A stretch of 64,000 bases of DNA. Source: Henricia sp. BOLD:AAB3569. Taxonomy: Eukaryota; Echinodermata; Asteroidea; Spinulosida; Echinasteridae. The position numbers and the translations under genes are program-made. This document shows, one piece after another, positions 8,844-64,000 of the stretch (positions are counted from its first letter, which is position 1; each line of letters opens with the position of its first letter). The DNA lies in assembly GCA_037783545.1 (NCBI GenBank), contig JBBELK010000306.1, positions 310,001 to 374,000 on the forward strand. The letters run 5' to 3'. The notes below the pieces were generated by a model that worked only from the letters and a program-made list of their open reading frames with translations, had not been told where the DNA came from and ran no database searches.

Positions 8844-9540
8844 GGCATCTTGTCATGGCAGCGATCACCCAACTGCCTGACCCAGTCGCTTAAAGTTAAA
8901 GAACAAACTTTGGCGATCTCCAACAAGATATAACCTAACGAGTAAATGTCGCCCTCTACACTGTAACCTCCCGTACCGGAAAACACCTCTCGTGGGACGT
9001 GCGGGAACCATTTGAAATTGGCCCGCTGTTCCTGCCGAGACAGGCGCATGGGGCCTTCCACTGTCCTGCAGGCCTGCCCAAGGTCAATGACCTTAGCTCG
9101 CCCCATGAATCCGTTCTTGTATAAGAGGACGTTGTTTGGTTTCAGATCACAGTGCAGGAAGCCCATGGAGTGTAGATAGTGAAGACCCTTGGCAATATCG
9201 ATTGCCATCCAGAGCCAGTTCCGCAGGAACCACATGTGCTGTCCTCTCCTTATGGCATCTGCTAAGGTTAGATTTTTCATAAAAGATCGATCCCCGATGA
9301 ATTCGAGTGCAATGGCTGGCAGCTGTCCAGGATTCCTGATGATGCCGTAGAGCTTGGGGAAGGCCCAGTGCTCCTGCGCTATTTGCATGGCCTTGACCTC
9401 TCGCCACACATCACCCTCGCTCGCCGCAACTTAAGTTGCAGGACTTCACAGCCACCAAAGGGCGCCCCGAACCGCGCAGGCGCATTAGGGTCACCTGACC
9501 GAAGGTTCCTCTGCCCAGTTTGATTGGCCGTGGAAAGTCC
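8810..9540 (-). pseudogene. Protein kinase domain, frameshifted and truncated
   Basis: Minus strand. The first segment has the glycine-rich loop IKLGRGTFGQV (about 9490-9525) and VAVK with the ATP-binding Lys (about 9455). A frameshift near 9415-9450 separates it from a 199-residue frame. In that frame: REVKAM (helix C, residues 3-8), HCDLKPNNVLL (86-96; catalytic D88, Asn93), VIDLG (107-111; the DFG motif as DLG, D109), HVPREVF (the APE region as PRE), EGDIYSLGYILLEIA (helix F, D154) and RPSM. The frame stops at a TAG where helix I should continue (the next codons read ELTSL), so this is probably a nonsense mutation. HCD replaces HRD, as in some non-RD Ser/Thr or tyrosine-kinase-like kinases. 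No intron is seen inside the domain. The N-terminus is lost at the tRNA array border. Confidence 0.8.
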
Positions 9541-9577
9541 TAAACGTGTGTACGATTGTAAGATCTCGTACTCTCAC
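9529..9577. repeat. tRNA-less partial unit at the array border
   Basis: CGTGGAAAGTCC then TAAACGTGTG are array spacer sequence. They are joined directly to a GATTGTAAGAT-like piece from the other side of the tRNA, so the tRNA itself is missing. CGTGGAAAGTCC also reads as kinase coding sequence on the minus strand, so the border cannot be placed more exactly than 9529-9541. Confidence 0.7.
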
Positions 9578-9654
9578 GTGGAAAGTCCTAAACGTGTGCA
9601 ATAACTTTAATACGGTGAGTCAAAATGGCCCTCTTAAAAACAACCAGACACTTG

Positions 9655-9726
9655 TAGCAGAGCGAGGTTTCGATCCTCGGACCTCAGGGTTATGGGCCCA
9701 GCACGCTTCCGCTGCGCCACTCTGCT
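9655..9726 (-). tRNA. tRNA-iMet(CAU), copy 1 (border copy, one stem mismatch)
   Basis: The leftmost copy that still has a tRNA. It has the full 72-nt fold but an A-to-T change on the minus strand in the 3' side of the anticodon stem (CCCTG instead of CCCAG), which breaks one pair. The A and B boxes and T-run are intact. Being the border copy, it is more diverged than inner copies. Confidence 0.85.
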
Positions 9727-9833
9727 TCCGTACTGTAAGATTTTTCGTGCTCTCACGTTGAAAGTCCTAAACGTGTGCAATAACTTTAATACGGTGAGTC
9801 AAAATGGCCCTCCTAAAGACAACCAGACACTTG

Positions 9834-9905
9834 TAGCAGAGCGAGGTTTCGATCCTCGGACCTATGGGTTATGGGCCTAGCACGCTTCCGCTGCGCCACT
9901 CTGCT
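9834..9905 (-). tRNA. tRNA-iMet(CAU), copy 2
   Basis: Exactly 179 bp from copy 1. It has two anticodon-stem changes (CTAGG on the 5' side, CCCAT on the 3' side), so it is probably weakened or non-functional. The downstream T-run is interrupted (GTCTTT in place of GTTTTT), which would weaken pol III termination. Confidence 0.75.
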
Positions 9906-10012
9906 TCCGTACTGTAAGATTTCTCGTGCTCTGACGTTGAAAGTCCTAAACGTGTGCAATAACTTTAATACGGTGAGTCAAAATGGCCCTCCTAAAAACA
10001 ACCAGACACTTG

Positions 10013-10084
10013 TAGCAGAGCGAGGTTTCGATCCTCGGACCTCTGGGTTATGGGCCCAGCACGCTTCCGCTGCGCCACTCTGCT
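10013..10084 (-). tRNA. tRNA-iMet(CAU), copy 3
   Basis: Matches the canonical 72-nt sequence of the array throughout. The spacer to its right carries the border-type CGTACTCTCACGTGG variant, 2 bp shorter than inner spacers. Confidence 0.9.
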
Positions 10085-10189
10085 TCCGTACTGTAAGATT
10101 TCGTACTCTCACGTGGAAGGTCCTAAACGTGTGCAATAACTTTAATACGGTGAGTCAAAATGGCCCTCCTAAAAACAACCAGACACTTG

Positions 10190-10261
10190 TAGCAGAGCGA
10201 GGTTTCGATCCTCGGACCTCTGGGTTATGGGCCCAGCACGCTTCCGTTGCGCCACTCTGCT
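10190..10261 (-). tRNA. tRNA-iMet(CAU), copy 4
   Basis: Canonical except for one change in the A-box/D-loop (GCGCAACGG instead of GCGCAGCGG on the minus strand). That alters one of the conserved G residues of the D loop and could weaken both folding and TFIIIC binding. Confidence 0.85.
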
Positions 10262-10366
10262 TCCGTACTGTACGATTTCGTACTCTCACGTGGAAAGTCC
10301 TAAACGTGTGCAATAACTTTAATACGGTGAGTCAAAATGGCCCTCCTAAAAACAACCAGACACTTG

Positions 10367-10438
10367 TAGCAGAGCGAGGTTTCGATCCTCGGACCTCTGG
10401 GTTATGGGCCCAGCACGCTTCCGCTGCGCCACTCTGCT
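10367..10438 (-). tRNA. tRNA-iMet(CAU), copy 5
   Basis: Canonical tRNA body. It lies in a 177-bp-step border unit. Confidence 0.9.
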
Positions 10439-10544
10439 TCCGTACTGTAAGATTTCTCGTGCTCTACGTGGAAACTCCTAAACGTGTGCAATAACTTTAA
10501 TACGGTGATTCAAAATGGTACTCCTCAAAACAACCAGACACTTG

Positions 10545-10616
10545 TAGCAGAGCGAGGTTTCGATCCTCGGACCTCTGGGTTATGGGCCCAGCACGCTTCC
10601 GCTGCGCCACTCTGCT
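10545..10616 (-). tRNA. tRNA-iMet(CAU), copy 6
   Basis: Canonical tRNA body. The spacer downstream of the tRNA (10484-10544) has several private changes (GATTCAAAATGGTACTCC), including a T-run reduced to four, consistent with a less homogenised border. Confidence 0.88.
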
Positions 10617-13600
10617 TCTGTACTGTAAGATTTTTCGTGCTCTCACGTTGAAAGTCCTAAACGTGTGCAATAACTTTAATACGGTGAGTCAAAATGGTCC
10701 TCCTAAAAACAACCAGACACTTGTAGCAGAGCGAGGTTTCGATCCTCGGACCTCTGGGTTATGGGCCCAGCACGCTTCCGCTGCGCCACTCTGCTTCCGT
10801 ACTGTAAGATTTTTCGTGCTCTCACGTTGAAAGTCCTAAACGTGTGCAATAACTTTAATACGGTGAGTCAAAATGGCCCTCCTAAAAACAACCAGACACT
10901 TGTAGCAGAGCGAGGTTTCGATCCTCGGACCTCTGGGTTATGGGCCCAGCACGCTTCCGCTGCGCCACTCTGCTTCCGTACTGTAAGATTTTTCGTGCTC
11001 TCACGTTGAAAGTCCTAAACGTGTGCAATAACTTTAATACGGTGAGTCAAAATGGCCCTCCTAAAAACAACCAGACACTTGTAGCAGAGCGAGGTTTCGA
11101 TCCTCGGACCTCTGGGTTATGGGACCAGCACGCTTCCGCTGCGCCACTCTGCTTCCGTACTGTAAGATTTTTCGTGCTCTCACGTTGAAAGTCCTAAACG
11201 TGTGCAATAACTTTAATACGGTGAGTCAAAATGGCCCTCCTAAAAACAACCAGACACTTGTAGCAGAGCGAGGTTTCGATCCTCGGACCTCTGGGTTATG
11301 GGCCCAGCACGCTTCCGCTGCGCCACTCTGCTTCCGTACTGTAAGATTTTTCGTGCTCTCACGTTGAAAGTCCTAAACGTGTGCAATAACTTTAATACGG
11401 TGGGTCAAAATGGCCCTCCTAAAAACAACCAGACACTTGTAGCAGAGCGAGGTTTCGATCCTCGGACCTCTGGGTTATGGGCCCAGCACGCTTCCACTGC
11501 GCCACTCTGCTTCCGTACTGTAAGATTTTTCGTGCTCTCACGTTGAAAGTCCTTAACGTGTGCAATAACTTTAATACGGTGAGTCAAAATGGCCCTCCTA
11601 AAAACAACCAGACACTTGTAGCAGAGCGAGGTTTCGATCCTCGGACCTCTGGCTTATGGGCCCAGCACGCTTCCGCTGCGCCACTCTGCTTCCGTACTGT
11701 AAGATTTTTCGTGCTCTCACATTGAAAGTCCTAAACGTGTGCAATAACTTTAATACGGTGAGTCAAAATGGCCCTCCTAAAAACAACCAGACACTTGTAG
11801 CAGAGCGAGGTTTCGGTCCTCGGACCTCTGGGTTATGGGCCCAGCACGCTTCCGCTGCGCCACTCTGCTTCCGTACTGTAAGATTTTTCGTGCTCTCACG
11901 TTGAAAGTCCTAAACGTGTGCAATAACTTTAATACGGTGAGTCAAAATGGCCCTCCTAAAAACAACCAGACACTTGTAGCAGAGCGAGGTTTCGATCCTC
12001 GGACCTCTGGGTTATGGGCTCAGCACGCTTCCGCTGCGCCACTCTGCTTCTGTGCTGTAAGATTTTTCGTGCTCTCACGTTGAAAGTCCTAAACGTGTGC
12101 GATAACTTTAATACGGTGAGTCAAAATGGCCCTCCTAAAAACAACCAGACACTTGTAGCAGAGCGAGGTTTCGATCCTCGGACCTCTGGGTTATGGGCCC
12201 AGCACGCTTCCGCTGCGTCACTCTGCTTCCGTACTGTAAGATTTTTCGTGCTCTCACGTTGAAAGTCCTAAACGTGTGCAATAACTTTAATACGGTGAGT
12301 CAAAATGGCCCTCCTAAAAACCACCAGACACTTGTAGCAGAGCGAGGTTTCGATCCTCGGACCTCTGGGTTATGGGCCCAGCACGCTTCCGCTGCGCCAC
12401 TCTGCTTCCGTACTGTAAAATTTTTCGTACTCTCACGTTGAAAGTCCTAAACGTGTGCAATAACTTTAATACGGTGAGTCAAAATGGCCCTCCTAAAAAC
12501 AACCAGACACTTGTAGCAGAGCGAGGTTTCGATCCTCGGACCTCTGGGTTATGGGCCCAGCACGCTTCCGCTGCGCCACTCTGCTTCCGTACTGTAAGAT
12601 TTTTCGTGCTCTCACGTTGAAAGTCCTAAACGTGTGCAATAACTTTAATACGGTGAGTCAAAATGGCCCTCCTAAAAACAACCAGACACTTGTAGCAGAG
12701 CGAGGTTTCGATCCTCGGACCTCTGGGTTATGGGCCCAGCACGCTTCCGCTGCGCCACTCTGCTTCCGTACTGTAAGATTTTTTGTGCTCTCACGTTGAA
12801 AGTCCTAAACGTGTGCAATAACTTTAATACGGTGAGTCAAAATGGCCCTCCTAAAAACAACCAGACACTTGTAGCAGAGCGAGGTTTCGATCCTCGGACC
12901 TCTGGGTTATGGGCCCAGCACGCTTCCGCTGCGCCACTCTGCTTCCGTACTGTAAGATTTTTCGAGCTCTCACGTTGAAAGTCCTAAACGTGTGCAATAA
13001 CTTTAATACGGTGAGTCAAAATGGCCCTCCTAAAAACAACCAGACACTTGTAGCAGAGCGAGGTTTCGATCCTCGGACCTCTGGGTTATGGGCCCAGCAC
13101 GCTTCCGCTGCGCCACTCTGCTTCCGTACTGTAAGATTTTTCGTGCTCTCACGTTGAAAGTCCTAAACGTGTGCAATAACTTTAATACGGTGAGTCAAAA
13201 TGGCCCTCCTAAAAACAACCAGACACTTGTAGCAGAGCGAGGTTTCGATCCTCGGACCTCTGGGTTATGGGCCCAGCACGCTTCCGCTGCGCCACTCCGC
13301 TTCCGTACTGTAAGATTGTTCGTGCTCTCACGTTGAAAGTCCTAAACGTGTGCAATAACTTTAATACGGTGAGTCAAAATGGCCCTCCTAAAAACAACCA
13401 GACACTTCTAGCAGAGCGAGGTTTCGATCCTCGGACCTCTGGGTTATGGGCCCAGCACGCTTCCGCTGCGCGACTCTGCTTCCGTACTGTAAGATTTTTC
13501 GTACTCTCACGTTGAAAGTCCTAAACGTGTGCAATAACTTTAATACGGTGAGTCAAAATGGCCCTCCTAAAAACAACCAGACACTTGTAGCAGAGCGAGG

Positions 13601-14124
13601 TTTCGATCCTCGGACCTCTGGGTTATGGGCCCAGCACGCTTCCGCTGCGCCACTCTGCTTCCGTACTGTAAGATTTTTCGTGCTCTCACGTTGAAAGTCC
13701 TAAACGTGTGCAATAACTTTAATACGGTGAGTCAAAATGGCCCTCCTAAAAACAACCAGACACTTGTAGCAGACCGAGGTTTCGATCCTCGGACCTCTGG
13801 GTTATGGGCCCAGCACGCTTCCGCTGCGCCACTCTGCTTCCGTACTGTAAGATTTTTCGTGCTCTCACGTTGAAAGTCCTAAACGTGTGCAATAACTTTA
13901 ATACGGTGAGTCAAAATGGCCCTCCTAAAAACAACCAGACACTTGTAGCAGAGCGAAGTTTCGATCCTCGGACCTCTGGGTTATGGGCCCAGCACGCTTC
14001 CGCTGCGCCACTCTGCTTCCGTACTGTAAGATTTTTCGTGCTCTCACGTTGAAAGTCCTAAACGTGTGCAATAACTTTAATACGGTGAGTCAAAATGGCC
14101 CTCCTAAAAACAACCAGACACTTG

Positions 14125-14196
14125 TAGCAGAGCGAGGTTTCGATCCTCGGACCTCTGGGTTATTGGCCCAGCACGCTTCCGCTGCGCCACTCTGCT
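14125..14196 (-). tRNA. Initiator-type tRNA with anticodon changed to AAU
   Basis: The plus strand reads TTATTGGCCC where other copies read TTATGGGCCC. On the tRNA the loop is CCAAUAA instead of CCCAUAA, giving anticodon AAU (Ile) on an initiator body. The rest is canonical. Confidence 0.8.
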
Positions 14197-14463
14197 TCCG
14201 TACTGTAAGATTTTTCGTGCTCTCACGTTGAAAGTCCTAAACGTGTGCAATAACTTTAATACGGTGAGTCAAAATGGCCCTCCTAAAAACAACCAGACAC
14301 TTGTAGCAGAGCGAGGTTTCGATCCTCGGACCTCTGGGTTATGGGCCCAGCACGCTTCCGCTGCGCCACTCTGCTTCCGTACTGTAAGATTGTTCGTGCT
14401 CTCACGTTGAAAGTCCTAAACGTGTGCAATAACTTTAATACGGTGAGTCAAAATGGCCCTCCT

Positions 14464-14468
14464 AAAAA
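14464..14468 (-). terminator. Pol III terminator T5 (representative, one per unit)
   Basis: On the minus strand the trailer CAAGTGTCTGGTTG is followed by TTTTT 15-19 nt after the tRNA 3' end. A second TTTT (in CCATTTTGAC) lies about 12 nt further on. The same arrangement occurs in nearly every unit of the array, so each copy looks like an independent transcription unit with a 14-19 nt trailer. Confidence 0.85.
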
Positions 14469-14482
14469 CAACCAGACACTTG

Positions 14483-14554
14483 TAGCAGAGCGAGGTTTCG
14501 ATCCTCGGACCTCTGGGTTATGGGCCCAGCACGCTTCCGCTGCGCCACTCTGCT
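14483..14554 (-). tRNA. tRNA-iMet(CAU), canonical reference copy
   Basis: Initiator methionine tRNA delivers Met to the start codon with eIF2. Fold read on the minus strand: acceptor stem AGCAGAG/CTCTGCT, a perfect 7 bp with A1:U72, discriminator A; D stem GCGC/GCGT; anticodon stem CTGGG/CCCAG with loop CCCATAA, anticodon CAT and C33; variable loop AGGTC; T stem CGAGG/CCTCG with loop ATCGAAA. A1:U72, three G:C pairs next to the anticodon loop, and A54/A60 in the T loop (no ribothymidine site) are initiator hallmarks and exclude elongator Met. C33 is usual for animal initiators. The A box (TGGCGCAGCGG) and B box (GGATCGAAACC) are intact, there is no intron, and CCA is not encoded, as expected for a nuclear gene. 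The body equals vertebrate initiators as I recall them, except for the T stem and neighbouring bases. Confidence 0.97.
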
Positions 14555-15197
14555 TCCGTACTGTAAGATTTTTCGTGCTCTCACGTTGAAAGTCCTAAAC
14601 GTGTGCAATAACTTTAATACGGTGAGTCAAAATGGCCCTCCTAAAAACAACCAGACACTTGTAGCAGAGCGAGGTTTCGATCCTCGGACCTCTGGGTTAT
14701 GGGCCCAGCACGCTTCCGCTGCGCCACTCTGCTTCCGTACTGTAAGATTTTTCGTGCTCTCACGTTGAAAGTCCTAAACGTGTGCAATAACTTTAATACG
14801 GTGAGTCAAAATGGCCCTCCTAAAAACAACCAGACACTTGTAGCAGAGCGAGGTTTCGATCCTCGGACCTCTGGGTTATGGGCCCAGCACGCTTCCGCTG
14901 CGCCACTCTGCTTCCGTACTGTAAGATTTTTCGTGCTCTCACGTTGAAAGTCCTAAACGTGTGCAATAACTTTAATACGGTGAGTCAAAATGGCCCTCCT
15001 AAAAACAACCAGACACTTGTAGCAGAGCGAGGTTTCGATCCTCGGACCTCTGGGTTATGGGCCCAGCACGCTTCCGCTGCGCCCTCTGCTTCCGTACTGT
15101 AAGATTTTTCGTGCTCTCACGTTTAAAGTCCTAAACGTGTGCAATAACTTTAATACGGTGAGTCAAAATGGCCCTCCTAAAAACAACCAGACACTTG

Positions 15198-18100
15198 TAG
15201 CAGAGCGAGGTTTCGATCCTCGGACCTCTAGGTTATGGGCCCAGCACGCTTCCGCTGCGCCACTCTGCTTCCGTACTGTAAGATTTTTCGTGCTCTCACG
15301 TTGAAAGTCCTAAACGTGTGCAATAACTTTAATACGGTGAGTCAAAATGGCCCTCCTAAAAACAACCAGACACTTGTAGCAGAGCGAGGTTTCGATCCTC
15401 GGACCTCTGGGTTATGGGCCCAGAACGCTTCCGCTGCGCCACTCTGCTTCCGTACTGTAAGATTTGTCGTGCTCTCACGTTGAAAGTCCTAAACGTGTGC
15501 AATAACTTTAATACGGTGAGTCAAAATGGCCCTCCTAAAAACAACCAGACACTTGTAGCAGAGCGAGGTTTCGATTCTTCGGACCTCTGGGCCCAGCACG
15601 CTTCCGCTGCGCCACTATGCTTCCGTACTGTAAGATTTTTCGTGCTCTCACGTTGAAAGTCCTAAACGTGTGCAATAACTTTAATACGGTGGGTCAAAAT
15701 GGCCCTCCTAAAAACAACCAGACACTTGTAGCAGAGCGAGGTTTCGATCCTCGGACCTCTGGGTTATGGGCCCAGCACGCTTCCGCTGCGCCACTCTGCT
15801 TCCGTACTGTAAGATTTTTCGGGCTCTCACGTTGAAAGTCCTAAACGTGTGCAATAACTTTAATACGGTGAGTCAAAATGGCCCTCCTAAAAACAACCAG
15901 ACACTTGTAGCAGAGCGAGGTTTCGATCCTCGGACCTCTGGGTTATGGGCCCAGCACGCTTCCGCTGCGCCACTCTGCTTCCGTACTGTAAGATTTTTCG
16001 TGCTCTCACGTTGAAAGTCCTAAACGTGTGCAATAACTTTAATACGGTGAGTCAAAATGGCCCTCCTAAAAACAACCAGACACTTGTAGCAGAGCGAGGT
16101 TTCGATCCTCGGACCTCTGGGCCCAGCACGCTTCCGCTGCGCCACTCTGCTTCCGTACTGTAAGATTTTTCGTGCTCTCACGTTGAAAGTCCTAAACGTG
16201 TGCAATAACTTTAATACGGTGAGTCAAAATGGCCCTCCTAAAAACAACCAGACACTTGTAGCAGAGCGAGGATTCGATCATCGGACCTCTGGGTTATGGG
16301 CCCAGCACGCTTCCGCTGCGCCACTCTGCTTCCGTACTGTAAGATTTTTCGTGCTCTCACGTTGAAAGTCCTAAACGTGTGCAATAACTTTAATACGGTG
16401 AGTCAAAATGGCCCTCCTAAAAACAACTAGACACTTGTAGCAGAGCGAGGTTTTGATTCTCGGACCTCTGGGTTATGGGCCCAGCACGCTTCCGCTGCGC
16501 CACTCTGCTTCCGTACTGTAAGATTTTTCGTGCTCTCACGTTAAAAGTCCTAAACGTGTGCAATAACTTTAATACGGTGGGTCAAAATGGACCTCCTAAA
16601 AACAACCAGACACTTGTAGCAGAGCGAGGTTTCGATCCTCGGACCTCTGGGTTATGGGCCCAGCACGCTTCCGCTGCGCAACTCTGCTTCCGTACTGTAA
16701 GATTTTTCGTGCTCTCACGTTGAAAGTCCTAAACGTGTGCAATAACTTTAATACGGTGAGTCAAAATGGCCCTCCTAAAAACAACCAGACACTTGTAGCA
16801 GAGCGAGGTTTCGATCCTCGGACCTCTGGGTTATGGGCCCAGCACGCTTCCGCTGCGCCACTCTGCTTCCGTACTGTAAGATTTTTCGTGCTCTCACGTT
16901 GAAAGTCCAAAACGTGTGCAATAACTTTAATACGGTGAGTCAAAATGGCCCTCCTAAAAACAACCAGACACTTGTAGCAGAGCGAGGTTTCGATCCTCGG
17001 ACCTCTGGGTTATGGGCCCAGCACGCTTCCGCTGCGCCACTCTGCTTCCGTACTGTAAGATTTTTCGTGCTCTCACGTTGAAAGTCCTAAACGTGTGCAA
17101 TAACTTTAATACGGTGAGTCAAAGTGGCCCTCCTAAAAACAACCAGACACTTGTAGCAGAGCGAGGTTTCGATCCTCGGACCTCTGGGTTATGGGCCCAG
17201 CACGCTTCCGCTGCGCCACTCTGCTTCCGTACTGTAAGATTTTTCGTGCTCTCACGTTGAAAGTCCTAAACGTGTGCAATAACTTTAATACGGTGAGTCA
17301 AAATGGCCCTCCTAAAAACAACCAGACACTTGTAGCAGAGCAAGGTTTCGATCCTCGGACCTCTGGGTTATGGGCCCAGCACGCTTCCGCTGCGCCACTC
17401 TGCTTCCGTACTGTAAGATTTTTCGTGCTCTCACGTTAAAGTCCTAAACGTGTGCAATAACTTTAATACGGTGGGTCAAAATGGCCCTCCTAAAAACAAC
17501 CAGACACTTGTAGCAGAGCGAGGTTTCGATCCTCGGACCTCTGGGTTATGGGCCCAGCACGCTTCCGCTGCGCCACTCTGCTTCCGTACTGTAAGATTTT
17601 TCGTGCTCTCACGTTGAAAGTCCTAAACGTGTGCAATAACTTTAATACGGTGAGTCAAAATGGCCCTCCTAAAAACAACCAGACACTTGTAGCAGAGCGA
17701 GGTTTCGATCCTCGGACCTCTGGGTTATGGGCCCAGCACGCTTCCGCTGCGCCACTCTGCTTCCGTACTGTAAGATTTTTCGTGCTCTCACGTTGAAAGT
17801 CCTAAACGTGTGCAATAACTTTAATACGGTGAGTCAAAATGGCCCTCCTAAAAACAACCAGACACTTGTAGCAGAGCGAGGTTTCGATCCTCGGACCTCT
17901 GGGTTATGGGCCCAGCACGCTTCCGCTGCGCCACTCTGCTTCCGTACTGTAAGATTTTTCGTGCTCTCACGTTGAAAGTCCTAAACGTGTGCAATAACTT
18001 TAATACGGTGAGTCAAAATGGCCCTCCTAAAAACAACCAGACACTTGTAGCAGAGCGAGGTTTCGATCCTCGGACCTCTGGGTTATGGGCCCAGCACGCG

Positions 18101-21100
18101 TCCGCTGCGCCACTCTGCTTCCGTACTGTAAGATTTTTCGTGCTCTCACGTTTAAAGTCCTAAACGTGTGCAATAACTTTAATACGGTGAGTCAAAATGG
18201 CCCTCCTAAAAACAACCAGACACTTGTAGCAGAGCGAGGTTTCGATCCTCGGACCTCTAGGTTATGGGCCCAGCACGCTTCCGCTGCGCCACTCTGCTTC
18301 CGTACTGTAAGATTTTTCGTGCTCTCACGTTGAAAGTCCTAAACGTGTGCAATAACTTTAATACGGTGAGTCAAAATGGCCCTCCTAAAAACAACCAGAC
18401 ACTTGTAGCAGAGCGAGGTTTCGATCCTCGGACCTCTGGGTTATGGGCCCAGAACGCTTCCGCTGCGCCACTCTGCTTCCGTACTGTAAGATTTGTCGTG
18501 CTCTCACGTTGAAAGTCCTAAACGTGTGCAATAACTTTAATACGGTGAGTCAAAATGGCCCTCCTAAAAACAACCAGACACTTGTAGCAGAGCGAGGTTT
18601 CGATTCTTCGGACCTCTGGGCCCAGCACGCTTCCGCTGCGCCACTATGCTTCCGTACTGTAAGATTTTTCGTGCTCTCACGTTGAAAGTCCTAAACGTGT
18701 GCAATAACTTTAATACGGTGGGTCAAAATGGCCCTCCTAAAAACAACCAGACACTTGTAGCAGAGCGAGGTTTCGATCCTCGGACCTCTGGGTTATGGGC
18801 CCAGCACGCTTCCGCTGCGCCACTCTGCTTCCGTACTGTAAGATTTTTCGGGCTCTCACGTTGAAAGTCCTAAACGTGTGCAATAACTTTAATACGGTGA
18901 GTCAAAATGGCCCTCCTAAAAACAACCAGACACTTGTAGCAGAGCGAGGTTTCGATCCTCGGACCTCTGGGTTATGGGCCCAGCACGCTTCCGCTGCGCC
19001 ACTCTGCTTCCGTACTGTAAGATTTTTCGTGCTCTCACGTTGAAAGTCCTAAACGTGTGCAATAACTTTAATACGGTGAGTCAAAATGGCCCTCCTAAAA
19101 ACAACCAGACACTTGTAGCAGAGCGAGGTTTCGATCCTCGGACCTCTGGGTTATGGGCCCAGCACGCTTCCGCTGCGCCACTCTGCTTCCGTACTGTAAG
19201 ATTTTTCGTGCTCTCACGTTGAAAGTCCTAAACGTGTGCAATAACTTTAATACGGTGAGTCAAAATGGCCCTCCTAAAAACAACCAGACACTTGTAGCAG
19301 AGCGAGGTTTCGATCCTCGGACCTCTGGGTTATGGGCCCAGCACGCGTCCGCTGCGCCACTCTGCTTCCGTACTGTAAGATTTTTCGTGCTCTCACGTTT
19401 AAAGTCCTAAACGTGTGCAAAAACTTTAATACGGTGAGTCAAAATGGCCCTCCTAAAAACAACCAGACACTTGTAGCAGAGCGAGGTTTCGATCCTCGGA
19501 CCTCTAGGTTATGGGCCCAGCACGCTTCCGCTGCGCCACTCTGCTTCCGTACTGTAAGATTTTTCGTGCTCTCACGTTGAAAGTCCTAAACGTGTGCAAT
19601 AACTTTAATACGGTGAGTCAAAATGGCCCTCCTAAAAACAACCAGACACTTGTAGCAGAGCGAGGTTTCGATCCTCGGACCTCTGGGTTATGGGCCCAGA
19701 ACGCTTCCGCTGCGCCACTCTGCTTCCGTACTGTAAGATTTGTCGTGCTCTCACGTTGAAAGTCCTAAACGTGTGCAATAACTTTAATACGGTGAGTCAA
19801 AATGGCCCTCCTAAAAACAACCAGACACTTGTAGCAGAGCGAGGTTTCGATTCTTCGGACCTCTGGGCCCAGCACGCTTCCGCTGCGCCACTATGCTTCC
19901 GTACTGTAAGATTTTTCGTGCTCTCACGTTGAAAGTCCTAAACGTGTGCAATAACTTTAATACGGTGGGTCAAAATGGCCCTCCTAAAAACAACCAGACA
20001 CTTGTAGCAGAGCGAGGTTTCGATCCTCGGACCTCTGGGTTATGGGCCCAGCACGCTTCCGCTGCGCCACTCTGCTTCCGTACTGTAAGATTTTTCGGGC
20101 TCTCACGTTGAAAGTCCTAAACGTGTGCAATAACTTTAATACGGTGAGTCAAAATGGCCCTCCTAAAAACAACCAGACACTTGTAGCAGAGCGAGGTTTC
20201 GATCCTCGGACCTCTGGGTTATGGGCCCAGCACGCTTCCGCTGCGCCACTCTGCTTCCGTACTGTAAGATTTTTCGTGCTCTCACGTTGAAAGTCCTAAA
20301 CGTGTGCAATAACTTTAATACGGTGAGTCAAAATGGCCCTCCTAAAAACAACCAGACACTTGTAGCAGAGCGAGGTTTCGATCCTCGGACCTCTGGGCCC
20401 AGCACGCTTCCGCTGCGCCACTCTGCTTCCGTACTGTAAGATTTTTCGTGCTCTCACGTTGAAAGTCCTAAACGTGTGCAATAACTTTAATACGGTGAGT
20501 CAAAATGGCCCTCCTAAAAACAACCAGACACTTGTAGCAGAGCGAGGTTTCGATTCTCGGACCTCTGGGTTATGGGCCCAGCACGCTTCCGCTGCGCCAC
20601 TCTGCTTCCGTACTGTAAGATTTTTCGTGCTCTCACGTTAAAAGTCCTAAACGTGTGCAATAACTTTAATACGGTGGGTCAAAATGGACCTCCTAAAAAT
20701 AACCAGACACTTGTAGCAGAGCGAGGTTTCGATCCTCGGACCTCTGGGTTATGGGCCCAGCACGCTTCCGCTGCGCAACTCTGCTTCCGTACTGTAAGAT
20801 TTTTCGTGCTCTCACGTTGAAAGTCCTAAACGTGTGCAATAACTTTAATACGGTGAGTCAAAATGGCCCTCCTAAAAACAACCAGACACTTGTAGCAGAG
20901 CGAGGTTTCGATCCTCGGACCTCTGGGTTATGGGCCCAGCACGCTTCCGCTGCGCCACTCTGCTTCCGTACTGTAAGATTTTTCGTGCTCTCACGTTGAA
21001 AGTCCAAAACGTGTGCAATAACTTTAATACGGTGAGTCAAAATGGCCCTCCTAAAAACAACCAGACACTTGTAGCAGAGCGAGGTTTCGATCCTCGGACC

Positions 21101-29895: not shown

Positions 29896-30002
29896 TCCGT
29901 ACTGTAAGATTTTTCGTGCTCTCACGTTGAAAGTCCTAAACGTGTGCAATAACTTTAATCCGGTGAGTCAAAATGGCCCTCCTAAAAACAACCAGACACT
30001 TG

Positions 30003-40675: not shown

Positions 40676-40820
40676 TCCGTACTGTAAGATTTTTCGTGCT
40701 CTCACGTTGAAAGTCCTAAACGTGTGCAATAACTTTAATACGGTGAGTCAAAATGGCCCTCCTAAAAACAACCAGACACTTGTAGCAGAGCGAGGTTTCG
40801 ATCCTCGAACCTCTGGGTTA
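30040..40820. repeat. Higher-order repeat family B (8- and 5-monomer units)
   Basis: The D-arm insertion marker recurs ten times; successive spacings are 1436, 362, 1436, 1436, 899, 899, 1436, 1436 and 899 bp. 1436 = 8 monomers + 4, 899 = 5 monomers + 4, 362 = 2 monomers + 4. A private marker (GAGTAAAAATGG near 34815 and 39485) lies 4670 bp apart, i.e. 26 monomers + 16, so several of these blocks were later copied together. Confidence 0.92.
36650..36725 (-). tRNA. 76-nt initiator-type copy with D-arm insertion and AAU anticodon
   Basis: Carries the 4-nt GCGC insertion of family B between the D stem and anticodon stem. It also has the plus-strand TTATTGGCCC change (anticodon AAU on the tRNA), as in the copy at 14125. 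The latter arose independently or by exchange. It is the only one of the ten insertion copies with the anticodon change. Probably a pseudogene. Confidence 0.75.
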
Positions 40821-48011: not shown

Positions 48012-48118
48012 TCCGTACTGTAAGATTTTTCGTGCTCTCACGTTGAAAGTCCTAAACGTGTGCAATAACTTTAATACGGTGAGTCAAAATGGCCCTCCTA
48101 AAAACAACCAGACACTTG

Positions 48119-54100: not shown

Positions 54101-54623
54101 ATTTTTCGTGCTCTCACGTTGAAAGTCCTAAACGTGTGCAATAACTTTAATACGGTGAGTCAAAATGGCCCTCCTAAAAACAACCAGACACTTGTAGCAG
54201 AGCGAGGTTTCGCTCCTCGGACCTCTGGGTTATGGGCCCAGCACGCTTCCGCTGCGCCACTCTGCTTCCGTACTGTAAGATTTTTCGTGCTCTCACGTTG
54301 AAAGTCCTAAACGTGTGCAATAACTTTAATACGGTGAGTCAAAATGGCCCTCCTAAAAACAACCAGACACTTGTAGCAGAGCGAGGTTTCGATCCTCGGA
54401 CCTCTGGGTTATGGGCCCAGCACGCTTCCGCTGCGCCACTCTGCTTCCGTACTGTAAGATTTTTCGTGCTCTCACGTTGAAAGTCCTAAACGTGTGCAAT
54501 AACTTTAATACGGTGAGTCAAATGGCCCTCCTAAAAACAACCAGACACTTGTAGCAGAGCGAGGTTTCGATCCTCGGACCTCTGGGTTATGGGCCCAGCA
54601 CGCTTCCGCTGCGCCACTCTGCT
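48119..54623 (-). tRNA. 37 tRNA-iMet copies, higher-order repeat family C
   Basis: Copies 216-252. A marker unit with GGCCTCCTAAAAACAATC, CAGCCGCTTCC (one base lost in the tRNA) and CACTCGGCTTCC recurs near 48240, 50580, 52546 and 53796. The unit following it by two carries TTTCGCTCCTC (T-loop change). Copies at 49728 and 51694 carry the U72-to-C change. The remaining copies are canonical in the tRNA body. Confidence 0.91.
48240..54590. repeat. Higher-order repeat family C (13-, 11- and 7-monomer spacing)
   Basis: The spacing of the compound marker unit is 2325 (13 monomers - 2), 1966 (11 monomers - 3) and 1250 bp (7 monomers - 3). The blocks share the same ordered series of variants but get shorter from left to right, as expected from unequal exchange that removed inner monomers. 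Confidence 0.9.
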
Positions 54624-54730
54624 TCCGTACTGTAAGATTTTTCGTGCTCTCACGTTGAAAGTCCTAAACGTGTCCAATAACTTTAATACGGTGAGTCAAA
54701 ATGGCCCTCCTAAAAACAACCAGACACTTG

Positions 54731-57700
54731 TAGCAGAGCGAGGTTTCGATCCTCGGACCTCTGGGTTATGGGCCCAGCACGCTTCCGCTGCGCCACTCTG
54801 CTTCCGTACTGTAAGATTTTTCGTGCTCTCACGTTGAAAGTCCTAAACGTGTGCAATAACTTTAATACGGTGAGTCAAAATGGCCCTCCTAAAAACAACC
54901 AGACACTTGTAGCAGAGCGAGGTTTCGATCCTCGGACCTCTGGGTTATGGGCCCAGCACGCTTCCGCTGCGCCACTCTGCTTCCGTACTGTAAGATTTTT
55001 CGTGCTCTCACGTTGAAAGTCCTAAACGTGTGCAATAACTTTAATACGGTGAGTCAAAATGGCCCTCCTAAAAACAACCAGACACTTGTAGCAGAGCGAG
55101 GTTTCGATCCTCGGACCTCTGGGTTATGGGCCCAGCACGCTTCCGCTGCGCCACTCTGCTTCCGTACTGTAAGATTGTTCGTGCTCTCACGTTGAAAGTC
55201 CTAAACGTGTGCAATAACTTTAATACGGTGAGTCAAAATGGCCCTCCTAAAAACAACCAGACACTTGTAGCAGAGCGAGGTTTCGATCCTCGGACCTCTG
55301 GGTTATGGGCCCAGCACGCTTCCGCTGCGCCACTCTGCTTCCGTACTGTAAGATTGTTCGTGCTCTCACGTTGAAAGTCCTAAACGTGTGCAATAACTTT
55401 AATACGGTGAGTCAAAATGGCCCTCCTAAAAACAACCAGACACTTGTAGCAGAGCGAGGTTTCGATCCTCGGACCTCTGGGTTATGGGCCCAGCACGCTT
55501 CCGCTGCGCCACTCTGCTTCCGTACTGTAAGATTTTTCGTGCTCTCACGTTGAAAGTCCTAAACGTGTGCAATAACTTTAATACGGTGAGTCAAAATGGC
55601 CCTCCTAAAAACAACCAGACACTTGTAGCAGAGCGAGGTTTCGATCCTCGGACCTCTGGGTTATGGGCCCAGCACGCTTCCGCTGCGCCACTCTGCTTCC
55701 GTACTGTAAGATTTTTCGTGCTCTCACGTTGAAAGTCCTAAACGTGTGCAATAACTTTAATACGGTGAGTCAAAATGGCCCTCCTAAAAACAACCAGACA
55801 CTTGTAGCAGAGCGAGGTTTCGATCCTCGGACCTCTGGGTTATGGGCCCAGCACGCTTCCGCTGCGCCACTCTGCTTCCGTACTGTAAGATTTTTCGTGC
55901 TCTCACGTTGAAAGTCCTAAACGTGTGCAATAACTTTAATACGGTGAGTCAAAATGGCCCTCCTAAAAACAACCAGACACTTGTAGCAGAGCGAGGTTTC
56001 GATCCTCGGACCTCTGGGTTATGGGCCCAGCACGCTTCCGCTGCGCCACTCTGCTTCCGTACTGTAAGATTTTTCGTGCTCTCACGTTGAAAGTCCTAAA
56101 CGTGTGCAATAACTTTAATACGGTGAGTCAAAATGGCCCTCCTAAAAACAACCAGACACTTGTAGCAGAGCGAGGTTTCGATCCTCGGACCTCTGGGTTA
56201 TGGGCCCAGCACGCTTCCGCTGCGCCACTCTGCTTCCGTACTGTAAGATTTTTCGTGCTCTCACGTTGAAAGTCCTAAACGTGTGCAATAACTTTAATAC
56301 GGTGAGTCAAAATGGCCCTCCTAAAAACAACCAGACACTTGTAGCAGAGCGAGGTTTCGATCCTTGGACCTCTGGGTTATGGGCCCAGCACGCTTCCGCT
56401 GCGCCACTCTGCTTCCGTACTGTAAGATTTTTCGTGCTCTCACGTTGAAAGTCCTAAACGTGTGCAATAACTTTAATACGGTGAGTCAAAATGGCCCTCC
56501 TAAAAACAACCAGACACTTGTAGCAGAGCGAGGTTTCGATCCTCGGACCTCTGGGTTATGGGCCCAGCACGCTTCCGCTGCGCCACTCTGCTTCCGTACT
56601 GTAAGATTGTTCGTGCTCTCACGTTGAAAGTCCTAAACGTGTGCAATAACTTTAATACGGTGAGTCAAAATGGCCCTCCTAAAAACAACCAGACACTTGT
56701 AGCAGAGCGAGGTTTCGATCCTAGGACCTCTGGGTTATGGGCCCAGCACGCTTCCGCTGCGCCACTCTGCTTCCGTACTGTAATATTGTTCGTGCTCTCA
56801 CGTTGAAAGTCCTAAACGTGTGCAATAACTTTAATACGGTGAGTCAAAATGGCCCTCCTAAAAACAACCAGACACTTGTAGCAGAGCGAGGTTTCGATCC
56901 TCGGACCTCTGGGTTATGGGCCCAGCACGCTTCCGCTGCGCCACTCTGCTTCCGTACTGTAAAATTTTTCGTGCTCTTACGTTGAAAGTCCTAAACGTGT
57001 GCAATAACTTTAATACGGTGAGTCAAAATGGCCCTCCTAAAAACAACCAGACACTTGTAGCAGAGCGAGGTTTCGATCCTCGGACATCTGGGTTATGGGC
57101 CCAGCACGCTTCCGCTGCGCCACTCTGCTTCCGTACTGTAAGATTTGTCGTGCTCTCACGTTGAAAGTCCTAAACGTGTGCAATAACTTTAATACGGTGA
57201 GTCAAAATGGCCCTCCTAAAAACAACCAGACACTTGTAGCAGAGCGAGGTTTCGATCCTCGGACCTCTGGGTTATGGGCCCAGCAGGCTTCCGCTGCGCC
57301 ACTCTGCTTCCGTACTGTAAGATTTTTCGTGCTCTCACGTTGAAAGTCCTAAACGTGTGCAATAACTTTAATACGGTGAGTCAAAATGGCCCTCCTAAAA
57401 ACAACCAGACACTTGTAGCAGAGCGAGGTTTCGATCCTCGGACCTCTGGGTTATGGGCCCAGCACGCTTCCGCTGCGCCACTCTGCTTCCGTACTGTAAG
57501 ATTTTTCGTGCTCTCACGTTGAAAGTCCTAAACGTGTGCAATAAGTTTAATACGGTGAGTCAAAATGGCCCTCCTAAAAACAACCAGACACTTGTAGCAG
57601 AGCGAGGTTTCGATCCTCGGACCTCTGGGTTATGGGCCCAGCACGCTTCCGCTGCGCCACTCTGCTTCCGTACTGTAAGATTTTTCGTGCTCTCACGTTG

Positions 57701-58919
57701 AAAGTCCTAAACGTGTGCAATAACTTTAATACGGTGAGTCAAAATGGCCCTCCTAAAAACAACCAGACACTTGTAGCAGAGCGAGGTTTCGATCCTCGGA
57801 CCTCTGGGTTATGGGCCCAGCACGCTTCCGCTGCGCCACTCTGCTTCCGTACTGTAAGATTTTTCGTGCTCTCACGTTGAAAGTCCTAAACGTGTGCAAT
57901 AACTTTAATACGGTGAGTCAAAATGGCCCTCCTAAAAACAACCAGACACTTGTAGCAGAGCGAGGTTTCGATCCTCGGACCTCTGGGTTATGGGCCCAGC
58001 ACGCTTCCGCTGCGCCACTCTGCTTCCGTACTGTAAGATTTTTCGTGCTCTCACGTTGAAAGTCCTAAACGTGTGCAATAACTTTAATACGGTGAGTCAA
58101 AATGGCCCTCCTAAAAACAACCAGACACTTGTAGCAGAGCGAGGTTTCGATCCTCGGACCTCTGGGTTATGGGCCCAGCACGCTTCCGCTGCGCCACTCT
58201 GCTTCCGTACTGTAAGATTTTTCGTGCTCTCACGTTGAAAGTCCTAAACGTGTGCAATAACTTTTATACGGTGAGTCAAAATGGCCCTCCTAAAAACAAC
58301 CAGACACTTGTAGCAGAGCGAGGTTTCGATCCTCGGACCTCTGGGTTATGGGCCCAGCACGCTTCCGCTGCGCCACTCTGCTTCCGTACTGTAAGATTTT
58401 TCGTGCTCTCACGTTGAAAGTCCTAAACGTGTGCAATAACTTTAATACGGTGAGTCAAAATGGCCCTCCTAAAAACAACCAGACACTTGTAGCAGAGCGA
58501 GGTTTCGATCCTCGGACCTCTGGGTTATGGGCCCAGCACGCTTCCGCTGCGCCACTCTGCTTCCGTACTGTAAGATTTTTCGTGCTCTCACGTTGAAAGT
58601 CCTAAACGTGTGCAATAACTTTAATACGGTGAGTCAAAATGGCCCTCCTAAAAACAACCAGACACTTGTAGCAGAGCGAGGTTTCGATCCTCGGACCTCT
58701 GGGTTATGGGCCCAGCACGCTTCCGCTGCGCCACTCTGCTTCCGTACTGTAAGATTTTTCGTGCTCTCACGTTGAAAGTCCTAAACGTGTGCAATAACTT
58801 TAATACGGTGAGTCAAAATGGCCCTCCTAAAAACAACCAGACACTTGTAGCAGAGCGAGGTTTCGATCCTCGGACCTCTGGGTTGTGGGCCCAGCACGCT
58901 TCCGCTGCGCCACTCTGCT
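54731..58919 (-). tRNA. 24 tRNA-iMet copies, regular block
   Basis: Copies 253-276, all on exact 179-bp steps from 54731 to 58848. Variation is light: ATTGTTCG in the 5' flank of several units, a T-arm change near 56364, a change near 56723, and a changed D-arm base near 57286. The last copy has an altered anticodon and is listed separately. Confidence 0.93.
58848..58919 (-). tRNA. Initiator-type tRNA with anticodon changed to CAC
   Basis: The plus strand reads GGTTGTGGGCCC where other copies read GGTTATGGGCCC. The anticodon on the tRNA is CAC (Val) rather than CAU, in an otherwise intact initiator body. Confidence 0.85.
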
Positions 58920-59026
58920 TCCGTACTGTAAGATTGTTCGTGCTCTCACGTTGAAAGTCCTAAACGTGTGCAATAACTTTAATACGGTGAGTCAAAATGG
59001 GCCTCCTAAAAACAACCAGACACTTG

Positions 59027-62000
59027 TAGCAGAGCGAGGTTTCGATCCTCGGACCTCTGGGTTATGGGACCAGCACGATTCCGCTGCGCCACTCTGCTTC
59101 CGTACTGTAAGATTTTTCGTGCTCTCACGTTGAAAGTCTTAAACATGTGCAAAAACTTTAATACGGTGAGTCAAAATGGCCCTCCTAAAAACAACCAGAC
59201 ACTTGTAGCAGAGCGAGGTTTCGATCCTCAGACCTCTGGGTTATGGGCCCAGCACGCTTCCGCTGCGCCACTCTGCTTCCGTACTGTAAGATTTTTCGTG
59301 CTCTCACGTTGAAAGTCCTAAACGTGTGCAATAACTTTAATACGGTGAGTCAAAATGGCCCTCCTAAAAACAACCAGACACTTGTAGCAGAGCGAGGTTT
59401 CGATCCTCGGACCTCTGGGTTATGGGCCCAGCACGCTTCCGCTGCGCCACTCTGCTTCCGTACTGTAAGATTTTTCGTGCTCTCACGTTGAAAGTCCTAA
59501 ACGTGTGCAATAACTTTAATACGGTGAGTCAAAATGGCCCTCCTAAAAACAACCAGACACTTGTAGCAGAGCGAGGTTACAATCCTCGGACCTCTGGGTT
59601 ATGGGCCCAGCACGCTTCCGCTGCGCCACTCTGCTTCCGTACTGTAAGATTTTTCGTGCTCTCACGTTGAAAGTCCTAAACGTGTGCAATAACTTTAATA
59701 CGGTGAGTCAAAATGGCCCTCCTAAAAACAACCAGACACTTGTAGCAGAGCGAGGTTTCGATCCTCGGACCTCTGGGTTATGGGCCCAGCACGCTTCGAC
59801 TGCGCCACTCTGCTTCCGTACTGTAAGATTTTTCGTGCTCTCACGATGAAAGTCCTAAACGTGTGCAATAACTTTAATACGGTGAGTCAAAATGGCCCTC
59901 CTAAAAACAACCAGACACTTGTAGCAGAGCGAGGTTTCGATCCTCGGACCTCTGGGTTATGGGCCCAGCACGCTTCCGCTGCGCCACTCTACTTTCGTAC
60001 TGTAAGATTGTTCGTGCTCTCACGTTGAAAGTCCTAAACGTGTGCAATAACTTTAATACGGTGAGTCAAAATGGCCCTCCTAAAAACAACCAGACACTTG
60101 TAGCAGAGCGAGGTTTCGATGCTCGGACCTCTGGGTGGGCCCAGCACGCTTCCGCTGCGCCACTCTGCTTCCGTACTGTAAGATTTTTCGTGCTCTCACG
60201 TTGAAAGTCCTAAACGTGTGCAATAACTTTAATACGGTGAGTCAAAATGGCCCTCCTAAAAACAACCAGACACTTGTAGCAGAGCGAGGTTTCGATCCTC
60301 GGACCTCTGGGTTATGGGCCCAGCACGCTTCCGCTGCGCCACTCTGCTTCCGTACTGTAAGATTTTTCGTGCTCTCACGTTGAAAGTCCTAAACGTGTGC
60401 AATAACTTTAATACGGTGAGTCAAAATGGCCCTCCTAAAAACAACCAGACACTTGTAGCAGAGCGAGGTTTCGATCCTCGGACCTCTGGGTTATGGGCCC
60501 AGCACGCTTCCGCTGCGCCACTCTGCTTCCGTACTGTAAGATTGTTCGTGCTCTCACGTTGAAAGTCCTAAACGTGTGCAATAACTTTAATACGGTGAGT
60601 CAAAATGGCCCTCCTAAAAACAACCAGACACTTGTAGCAGAGCGAGGTTTCGATCCTCGGACCTCTGGGTTATGGGCCCAGCACGCTTCCGCTGCGCCAC
60701 TCTGCTTCCGTACTGTAAGATTTTTCGTGCTCTCACGTTGAAAGTCCTAAACGTGTGCAATAACTTTAATACGGTGAGTCAAAATGGCCCTCCTAAAAAC
60801 AACCAGACACTTGTAGCAGAGCGAGGTTTCGATCCTCGGACCTCTGGGTTATGGGCCCAGCACGCTTCCGCTGCGCCACTCTGCTTCCGTACTGTAAGAT
60901 TTTTCGTGCTCTCACGTTGAAAGTCCTAAACGTGTGCAATAACTTTAATACGGTGAGTCAAAATGGCCCTCCTAAAAACAACCAGACACTTGTAGCAGAG
61001 CGAGGTTTCGATCCTCGGACCTCTGGGTTATGGGCCCAGCACGCTTCCGCTGCGCCACTCTGCTTCCGTACTGTAAGATTGTTCGTGCTCTCACGTTGAA
61101 AGTCCTAAACGTGTGCAATAACTTTAATACGGTGAGTCAAAATGGCCCTCCTAAAAACAACCAGACACTTGTAGCAGAGCGAGGTTTCGATCCTCGGACC
61201 TCTGGGTTATGGGACCAGCACGCTTCCGCTGCGCCACTCTGCTTCCGTACTGTAAGATTTTTCGTGCTCTCACGTTGAAAGTCTTAAACATGTGCAAAAA
61301 CTTTAATACGGTGAGTCAAAATGGCCCTCCTAAAAACAACCAGACACTTGTAGCAGAGCGAGGTTTCGATCCTCGGACCTCTGGGTTATGGGCCCAGCAC
61401 GCTTCCGCTGCGCCACTCTGCTTCCGTACTGTAAGATTTTTCGTGCTCTCACGTTGAAAGTCCTAAACGTGTGCAATAACTTTAATACGGTGAGTCAAAA
61501 TGGCCCTCCTAAAAACAACCAGACACTTGTAGCAGAGCGAGGTTTCGATCCTCGGACCTCTGGGTTATGGGCCCAGCACGCTTCCGCTGCGCCACTCTGC
61601 TTCCGTACTGTAAGATTTTTCGTGCTCTCACGTTGAAAGTCCTAAACGTGTGCAATAACTTTAATACGGTGAGTCAAAATGGCCCTCCTAAAAACAACCA
61701 GACACTTGTAGCAGAGCGAGGTTACAATCCTCGGACCTCTGGGTTATGGGCCCAGCACGCTTCCGCTGCGCCACTCTGCTTCCGTACTGTAAGATTTTTC
61801 GTGCTCTCACGTTGAAAGTCCTAAACGTGTGCAATAACTTTAATACGGTGAGTCAAAATGGCCCTCCTAAAAACAACCAGACACTTGTAGCAGAGCGAGG
61901 TTTCGATCCTCGGACCTCTGGGTTATGGGCCCAGCACGCTTCGACTGCGCCACTCTGCTTCCGTACTGTAAGATTTTTCGTGCTCTCACGTTGAAAGTCC

Positions 62001-63033
62001 TAAACGTGTGCAATAACTTTAATACGGTGAGTCAAAATGGCCCTCCTAAAAACAACCAGACACTTGTAGCAGAGCGAGGTTTCGATCCTCGGACTTCTGG
62101 GTTATGGGCCCAGCACGCTTCCGCTGCGCCACTCTGCTTCCGTACTGTAAGATTTTTCGTGCTCTCACGTTGAAAGTCCTAAACGTGTGCAATAACTTTA
62201 ATACGGTGAGTCAAAATGGCCCTCCTAAAAACAACCAGACACTTGTAGCAGAGCGAGGTTTCGATCCTCGGACCTCTGGGTTATGGGCCCAGCACGCTTC
62301 CGCTGCGCCACTCTGCTTCCGTACTGTAAGATTTTTCGTGCTCTCACGTTGAAAGTCCTAAACGTGTGCAATAACTTGTATACGGTGAGTCAAAATGGCC
62401 CTCCTAAAAACAACCAGACACTTGTAGCAGAGCGAGGTTTCGATCCTCGGACCTCTGGGTTATGGGCCCAGCACGCTTCCGCTGCGCCACTCTGCTTCCG
62501 TACTGTAAGATTTTTCGTGCTCTCACGTTGAAAGTCCTAAACGTGTGCAATAACTTTAATACGGTGAGTCAAAATGGCCCTCCTAAAAACAACCAGACAC
62601 TTGTAGCAGAGCGAGGTTTCGATCCTCGGACCTCTGGGTTATGGGCCCAGCACGCTTCCGCTGCGCCACTCTGCTTCCGTACTGTAAGATTTTTCGTGCT
62701 CTCACGTTGAAAGTCCTAAACGTGTGCAATAAATTTAATACGGTGAGTCAAAATGGACCTCCTAAAAACAACCAGACACTTGTAGCAGAGCGAGGTTTCG
62801 ATCCTCGGACCTCTGGGTTATGGGCCCAGCACGCTTCCGCTGCGCCACTCTACTTTCGTACTGTAAGATTGTTCGTGCTCTCACGTTGAAAGTCCTAAAC
62901 GTGTGCAATAACTTTAATACGGTGAGTCAAAATGGCCCTCCTAAAAACAACCAGACACTTGTAGCAGAGCGAGGTTTCGATGCTCGGACCTCTGGGTTAT
63001 GGGCCCAGCACGCTTCCGCTGCGCCACTCTGCT
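59027..63033 (-). tRNA. 23 tRNA-iMet copies, higher-order repeat family D
   Basis: Copies 277-299. Shared markers: GGGACCAGC (anticodon-stem mismatch), AGTCTTAAACATGTGCAAAAAC (spacer), GGTTACAATCC (T-arm change), GCTTCGACTGCG (D-arm change) and TCTACTTTCGTAC (acceptor/5' flank change). The copy near 60098 has lost three bases of the anticodon loop (CTGGGTGGGCCC) and is a pseudogene. Confidence 0.9.
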
Positions 63034-63100
63034 TCCGTACTGTAAGATTTTTCGTGCTCTCACGTTGAAAGTCTTAAACATGTGCAAAAACTTTAATATG
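59064..63100. repeat. Higher-order repeat family D (12- and 10-monomer spacing)
   Basis: The AAACATGTGCAAAAAC marker follows the units with anticodon at 59064, 61209 and 62999, distances of 2145 (12 monomers - 3) and 1790 bp (10 monomers). The TACAATCC and CTTCGACTG markers repeat with the same 2145-bp offset. The TCTACTTTCG marker at 59959 and 62820 is 2861 bp apart (16 monomers - 3). Confidence 0.88.
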
Positions 63101-63140
63101 GTGAGTCAAAATGGCCCTCCTAAAAACAACCAGACACTTG

Positions 63141-63928
63141 TAGCAGAGCGAGGTTTCGATCCTCGGACCTCTGGGTTATGGGCCCAGCACGCTTCCGCTG
63201 TGCCACTCTGCTTCCGTACTGTAAGATTTTTCGTGCTCTCACGTTGAAAGTCCTAAACGTGTGCAATAACTTTAATACGGTGAGTCAAAATGGCCCTCCT
63301 AAAAACAACCAGACACTTGTAGCAGAGCGAGGTTTCGATCCTCGGACCTCTGGGTTATGGGCCCAGCACGCTTCCGCTGCGCCACTCTGCTTCCGTACTG
63401 TAAGATTTTTCGTGCTCTCACGTTGAAAGTCCTAAACGTGTGCAATAACTTTAATACGGTGAGTCAAAATGGCCCTCCTAAAAACAACCAGACACTTGTA
63501 GCAGAGCGAGGTTTCGATCCTCGGACCTCTGGGTTATGGGCCCAGCACGCTTCCGCTGCGCCACTCTGCTTCCGTACTGTAAGATTTTTCGTGCTCTCAC
63601 GTTGAAAGTCCTAAACGTGTGCAATAACTTTAATACGGTGAGTCAAAATGGCCCTCCTAAAAACAACCAGACACTTGTAGCAGAGCGAGGTTTCGATCCT
63701 CGGACCTCTGGGTTATGGGCCCAGCACGCTTCCGCTGCGCCACTCTGCTTCCGTACTGTAAGATTTTTCGTGCTCTCACGTTGAAAGTCCTAAACGTGTG
63801 CAATAACTTTAATACGGTGAGTCAAAATGGCCCTCCTAAAAACAACCAGACACTTGTAGCAGAGCGAGGTTTCGATCCTCGGACCTCTGGGTTATGGGCC
63901 CAGCACGCTTCCGCTGCGCCACTCTGCT
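63141..63928 (-). tRNA. Last 5 tRNA-iMet(CAU) copies in the window
   Basis: Copies 300-304, at 63141, 63320, 63499, 63678 and 63857. The first has one change in the A box (CTGTGCC on the plus strand); the others are canonical. The sequence continues as spacer to 64000, so the array extends beyond the window. Confidence 0.95.
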
Positions 63929-64000
63929 TCCGTACTGTAAGATTGTTCGTGCTCTCACGTTGAAAGTCCTAAACGTGTGCAATGACTTTAATACGGTGAG

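Follow-up and report, generated by a model that had tools for sequence, protein, structure and literature searches.

The window analyzed here, a whole stretch of 64,000 nucleotides (positions 310001-374000 of contig C306 in an assembly of 740.7 Mb and 2,104 contigs), runs into a tandem array in which, to judge from the sequence, a complete initiator tRNA-Met unit has been amplified and homogenised. We see an even chance that this is a satellite-like array of initiator genes that are used conditionally and mainly by the maternal side. The array, its edge, and one example unit are located as follows.

9529..64000, minus strand: array of initiator tRNA-Met genes in 179-bp units, of which the window contains 304 and the contig, up to its end, 604 (TRF and step-wise alignment)
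9529..9726, minus strand: array edge, made up of part of a spacer and of the unit at 9547-9726, which is the outermost and the most diverged one
9906..10084, minus strand: example unit, with the tRNA 5' end at 10084 and the next unit starting from 9905
10013..10084, minus strand: initiator tRNA-Met(CAU) of 72 nt in the example unit (Rfam RF00005, 57.1 bits; ARAGORN; stems and loops)
9994..9998, minus strand: T5 run of the example unit (AAAAA on the plus strand), a pol III-type terminator 14 nt past the tRNA end

TRF detected a single array over the window (positions 9566-64000; period of 179; 304.3 copies; 98% matches), and the similarity to the spacer already starts at 9529-9550. Step-wise alignment recovered 304 units with the tRNA 5' end inside the window, the same number as in the original prediction, of which the 179-bp unit and the uniform orientation also agree with the TRF period and with ARAGORN, placing the tRNAs on the minus strand throughout. 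The claim that the array leaves the window proved to be an understatement. By walking along C306 unit by unit, we found 604 head-to-tail copies of the tRNA-bearing unit (108 kb) up to the contig end, and the contig stops at position 427579 with the array not yet over. All of the 604 units share one orientation, with the tRNA genes on the minus strand and nothing intervening. The unit length is exactly 179 bp in 544 of them and ranges from 170 to 189 bp overall, none being 190 bp or longer. There are 201 distinct unit sequences, and 204 of the 604 units match the consensus exactly.

Each unit carries a single tRNA, on which ARAGORN, the unit walk, and Rfam agree. The 287 tRNAs that ARAGORN called in the window lie without exception on the minus strand (283 Met(cat), 2 Ile(aat), 1 Val(cac), and 1 unresolved), while 285 tRNAs between positions 9500 and 64000 scored over the Rfam gathering threshold. 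The 72-nt consensus tRNA has the acceptor pair A1:T72 and discriminator A, an anticodon stem of CTGGG/CCCAG with three closing G:C pairs, an anticodon loop of CCCATAA (C33), and a T loop of ATCGAAA (A54 and A60). We take the A1:T72 pair, the three closing G:C pairs, the C33-containing loop, A54/A60, and discriminator A to be hallmarks of initiators. Furthermore, the Northern probe for zebrafish iMet, parsed as TCTGGGTTATGGGCCCA from an excerpt of PMC11417395, was found to match the anticodon arm of the unit exactly. By these features, the array tRNA is a genuine initiator tRNA-Met, and the identity originally proposed for it holds. The T5 run is intact in 602 of the 604 units, so that nearly every unit has the pol III-type arrangement of at least four T residues downstream of the tRNA. 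When the tRNA alone was folded as RNA, the minimum was not a full cloverleaf.

A 32-base signature, allowing up to two mismatches, matched the genome 812 times (split between the strands as 565 and 247), and C306 accounts for 563 of the matches. C250 and C450 each carry one lone gene, the two sharing an identical 72-nt sequence with no differences from the array consensus (0/72). T runs are present downstream of both lone genes, and their flanks bear no similarity beyond chance to the array spacer. The 3' trailers read CAAGTGTCTGG... in the array but AAATTTTT... and ATGTTTTT... in the lone genes, making the array transcripts distinguishable from those of both.

A second array occupies C992 from position ~1228719 to the contig end at 1254311 (~26 kb; at most 143 units). 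The spacer on C992 has T, not G, at unit position 97, and its 100 exact copies are all on C992, with no exact copy on C306; the C306-type spacer has 85 exact copies outside C306. As far as a sample of eight complete C992 units, five of them at the edge, can tell, the consensus sequences of the two arrays differ at only three of the 179 positions. As the array is cut off by the end of each contig and the tRNAs are oriented as expected for opposite edges, we infer that C306 and C992 may represent the two sides of a single array, the middle of which is unassembled, two separate arrays being possible as well. At least 103 further signature copies (the 247 minus that of C250 and the 143) are located elsewhere, plus one further forward copy. 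On C992, eight copies with G for A before the tRNA are spaced by multiples of 179 bp; for several of them the distance is 12 or 24 units, which hints at duplicated blocks in this array as well.

The array appears to evolve as a satellite by unequal exchange, to which block duplications, divergence at the edge, and the lack of detectable selection on single copies all point. Among the 25 longest repeated runs of units listed, the runs are up to 12 units long with lags of 7-52 units, and 226 of the 604 units lie within repeated runs that hold at least four variant units. The identity between units is ~98.4% at every lag tried, as in a homogenised satellite array. The mean number of differences from the consensus per unit is 0.8-2.2 in blocks of 50 units but rises to 5.0 in the outermost four units at the edge. 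The original prediction considered a satellite that captured a tRNA. While satellite-like evolution is supported here, the order of events was likely the reverse. Because the repeat unit already amounts to a whole gene of the pol III type, with a tRNA and a T5 terminator, it is more likely, on the sequence, that a tRNA gene turned into a satellite than that a satellite captured a tRNA. A tRNA-derived SINE was also considered and rejected, as the unit has no A-rich tail and keeps a fixed 179-bp head-to-tail register, and the two lone genes have no common spacer, although the positions of the 85 exact spacer copies outside C306 do not enter into this comparison. The edges at position 9529 of the window and, for the C992 array, at L038:1520 both break in the same short stretch of the spacer, GTTTAGGACTTTCCACG or a close variant of it, and the first duplication may have had its breakpoint there.

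The tandem copy numbers in this assembly need to be treated with caution, as one of the other contigs appears to be a concatemer. We found COX1 on C2104, a contig of 16,221 bp, and the gene was best read under the echinoderm code (AAA = Asn), the AAA-coded residues matching conserved Asn in named sea-star sequences. Its best match was Meridiastra gunnii (433 of 447 residues), with further sea stars at 96%, so that the source of the DNA is identified as a sea star. In C955:7592-41374, there are three copies of COX1 with a spacing of exactly 16,221 bases, and C955 is thus probably a concatemer of mitochondrial genomes produced in the assembly. Together with the presence of array sequence at the ends of two contigs (C306 and C992), this concatemer could be taken to indicate that the assembler inflated a few real copies of the initiator unit. 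We nevertheless hold such an artefact to be highly improbable in light of the 201 distinct unit sequences, the duplicated blocks at irregular lags, the divergence climbing at the edge, and the spacer base that the second array has of its own. The worry about an artefact that accompanied the original prediction is answered in part: distinct units and multi-unit blocks are at odds with a simple artefact, while the copy number is assembly-based.

We then classified the individual tRNA copies. The tRNA matches the consensus exactly in 323 of the 604 units (152 of the 304 in the window). The remaining copies comprise 123 with pair-keeping substitutions, 109 with a broken pair (the acceptor, anticodon, and T stems were checked), 45 with an indel, and 4 with a changed anticodon; the corresponding numbers in the window, in the order of exact, pair-keeping, broken, indel, and changed anticodon, are 152, 63, 57, 30, and 2 of 304. 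The anticodon is CAT in 576 of the 604 copies and entirely missing in 22. An allele lacking seven bases, and with them the whole anticodon loop, was found in 16 of the 604 units, nine of which are in the window, for instance:

15550..15621, minus strand: copy with the 7-base deletion of the anticodon loop (tRNA 5' end at 15621; the other end is approximate)

Slippage at the CCC...CCC direct repeat flanking the loop would account for this allele. Seven of the 24 distinct length alleles fall in the anticodon loop (columns 29-41 of the tRNA), which makes up 13 of the 179 columns (p = 0.0012, post hoc). A deletion hotspot at the loop was set aside, as it had been noticed post hoc.

No constraint was detectable on single tRNA copies, as is the case for satellites. 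With base composition held, the number of distinct substitution variants over the 72 tRNA sites was 77, against 76.7 expected (sd 5.1), when 603 of the 604 units were analyzed with the outermost one dropped. When the observed variants were thinned in a simulation, the power was 0.96 for the removal of 30% of variants and 0.24 for the removal of 20%. Weak selection on single copies is therefore possible, since a removal of 20% or less would escape detection. A per-site table was drawn up from all 604 units. In the set of 603 units, variant cells per site are slightly more frequent in the tRNA (0.0076) than in the spacer (0.0056), and singletons are fewer among the tRNA variants (22 of 77) than among those of the spacer (48 of 99; p = 0.008). 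Both of these differences are contrary to selection on single copies.

The absence of any sign of selection on single copies and the 22 copies without an anticodon speak against use of the array. They lead to a reading in which the array is a passive product of unequal exchange and drift, its tRNAs being silent or their output irrelevant, and the cell is supplied by the lone genes. That the tRNA varies as much as the spacer with base composition held, that some anticodon-less copies have been multiplied within duplicated blocks, and that the lone genes yield the same product are all in line with this reading. On the other hand, the consensus remains a complete gene identical to the lone genes, and more than half of the tRNAs are exact. 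Recent amplification could also account for both of the latter observations, given the small number of differences between the C306 and C992 consensus sequences in the eight-unit sample. Altogether, we regard passive evolution as a real possibility, if one that falls short of being probable.

In the reading that we favor, a satellite-like array with conditional and mainly maternal use, a complete initiator unit (a 72-nt tRNA with its internal promoter, a T5 terminator, and a short spacer) has, as the sequence shows, multiplied head to tail to over 600 copies, which unequal exchange and the duplication of unit runs keep alike. Each of the intact copies would be transcribable by RNA polymerase III, and single copies would be dispensable because the same tRNA is also encoded by two or more lone genes. 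By analogy with zebrafish, the array may provide a surplus of initiator once its chromatin opens, above all in growing oocytes or early embryos, and the block may be largely silent in the soma. The supply of initiator in oocytes is plausible on this analogy. According to excerpts of the published work, the isodecoders of zebrafish eggs and early embryos stem from highly repetitive regions and the late ones from scattered genes (PMC11417395), which favors a maternal role, and such a role has been put forward as a hypothesis for the clustered tRNAs of zebrafish chr4 (PMC11075544). By contrast, silence is favored by the absence of accessible chromatin at most predicted tRNA genes in zebrafish embryos (PMC11574265) and by the Ser/Tyr (SYY) cluster of Arabidopsis, which is silent in most tissues and switched on in special cells (PMC12308677).

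We consider it unlikely that the array is a germline bank, in which hundreds of soma-silent initiator genes would open together in growing oocytes and load the egg, with copy number, not copy quality, under selection. Such a bank would be the counterpart of the oocyte 5S rRNA gene arrays. Nucleosome spacing is close to the 179-bp period, and units of the pol III type are densely packed in the array, as would suit a structural domain that acts via bound TFIIIC/Pol III, or as a pericentromeric or centromeric repeat, rather than via the tRNA. A tRNA repeat at human 1q23.3 binds CTCF and bears both active and silent marks, as described in part of PMC4041453, and this likeness also counts for a structural role, which we nonetheless hold to be very improbable.

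The array was originally called unusual. Its size, single isotype, and short unit do stand out, and the feature is striking, but arrays of tRNA genes are of a known kind, as indicated by Lys arrays in the same genome, tRNA counts in sea stars, and published clusters, and the initiator array is less isolated than it seemed. On C109, Lys(TTT) and Tyr(GTA) genes form an array whose main unit is 593 bp (34 Lys, 33 Tyr, and 2 His-like calls by ARAGORN in the stretches examined), and on C837, Lys(TTT) genes are arrayed in units of 584 bp (13 Lys calls by ARAGORN in the stretch examined). One Lys tRNA of C109 is identical to one of C837. These arrays come from 30 tRNA loci, 63 of 135,043 first-look candidates having been scored, which amounts to no census. 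Some of the Tyr copies in the C109 array (L036 and L037) were called His(gtg) by ARAGORN, representing a changed anticodon. For Asterias amurensis, 14,926 (PMC10625585) and 6,779 (PMC11090083) tRNAs were predicted in two assemblies, as stated in excerpts of the two papers; tRNA goes unmentioned in the excerpt of the Zoroaster assembly paper. The initiator array suggests that tandem arrays may be part of the reason why tRNA predictions for sea stars run into the thousands.

The tDNA of Xenopus laevis is a high-copy tandem repeat whose unit of ~3 kb has an initiator gene among several isotypes. In contrast, the sea-star unit holds the initiator only, and a multi-tRNA repeat of the Xenopus type was rejected on the ground that the sea-star unit holds one tRNA only. 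Entamoeba has many types of arrays, which together contain a large part of its tRNA genes. The Entamoeba arrays, named in the portion of PMC2888827 considered here, resemble the sea-star array in being long tandem arrays of tRNA genes but belong to a protist. In the same paper, tRNA gene clusters of at least 50 are described for Nematostella and teleosts, but neighboring pairs in Nematostella and zebrafish are mostly heterogeneous, and the clusters are smaller as far as described. Zebrafish chr4 shares with the sea star abundant tRNA genes in repetitive clusters plus lone genes for the same product (PMC11417395 and PMC11075544, excerpts), in contrast to which the sea star has one isotype and one 179-bp unit repeated 604 times in a row instead of mostly heterogeneous neighboring pairs (PMC2888827, excerpt). 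The human repeat at 1q23.3 is likewise tandem and variable in copy number but has a 7.3-kb unit with five tRNA genes and 9-43 units per allele (PMC4041453, excerpt). The SYY cluster of Arabidopsis also comprises tandem tRNA units expanded by duplication but is from a plant, carries elongator tRNAs, and has a far lower copy number (PMC12308677, excerpt). No pure initiator array of comparable size was found in the open-licence literature, and the 604 contiguous units exceed any homogeneous tRNA array that we found described in the parts of that literature covered here.

The level of initiator tRNA can limit translation initiation, and sea-star oocytes are easily obtained. More than 600 initiator genes in one block thus offer a direct test of maternal supply versus chromatin structure versus passive repeats. 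The array also indicates that a satellite can arise from a gene with no selection visible on each copy.

The sequence adjoining the array in the window contains an open frame that lies outside the array:

8813..9430, minus strand: protein-kinase-like open frame (Pfam PF00069, E 4.5e-19)

Farther from the array, an open frame for reverse transcriptase (RVT_1, E 6.2e-8) was found in the element at 3421-6428, with more open frames downstream, and we take this element to be DIRS-like in appearance. At ~790-2185, similar inverted ends, GTTGGCGTAACCCGACCGACC... and ...GGCCCGTTACGCCAACATAAC, were recognized by eye, and this region is probably a DNA transposon. The flank of the C992 array (L038:1-1300) is unique sequence and, by eye, has the look of a Tc1/mariner-type element.
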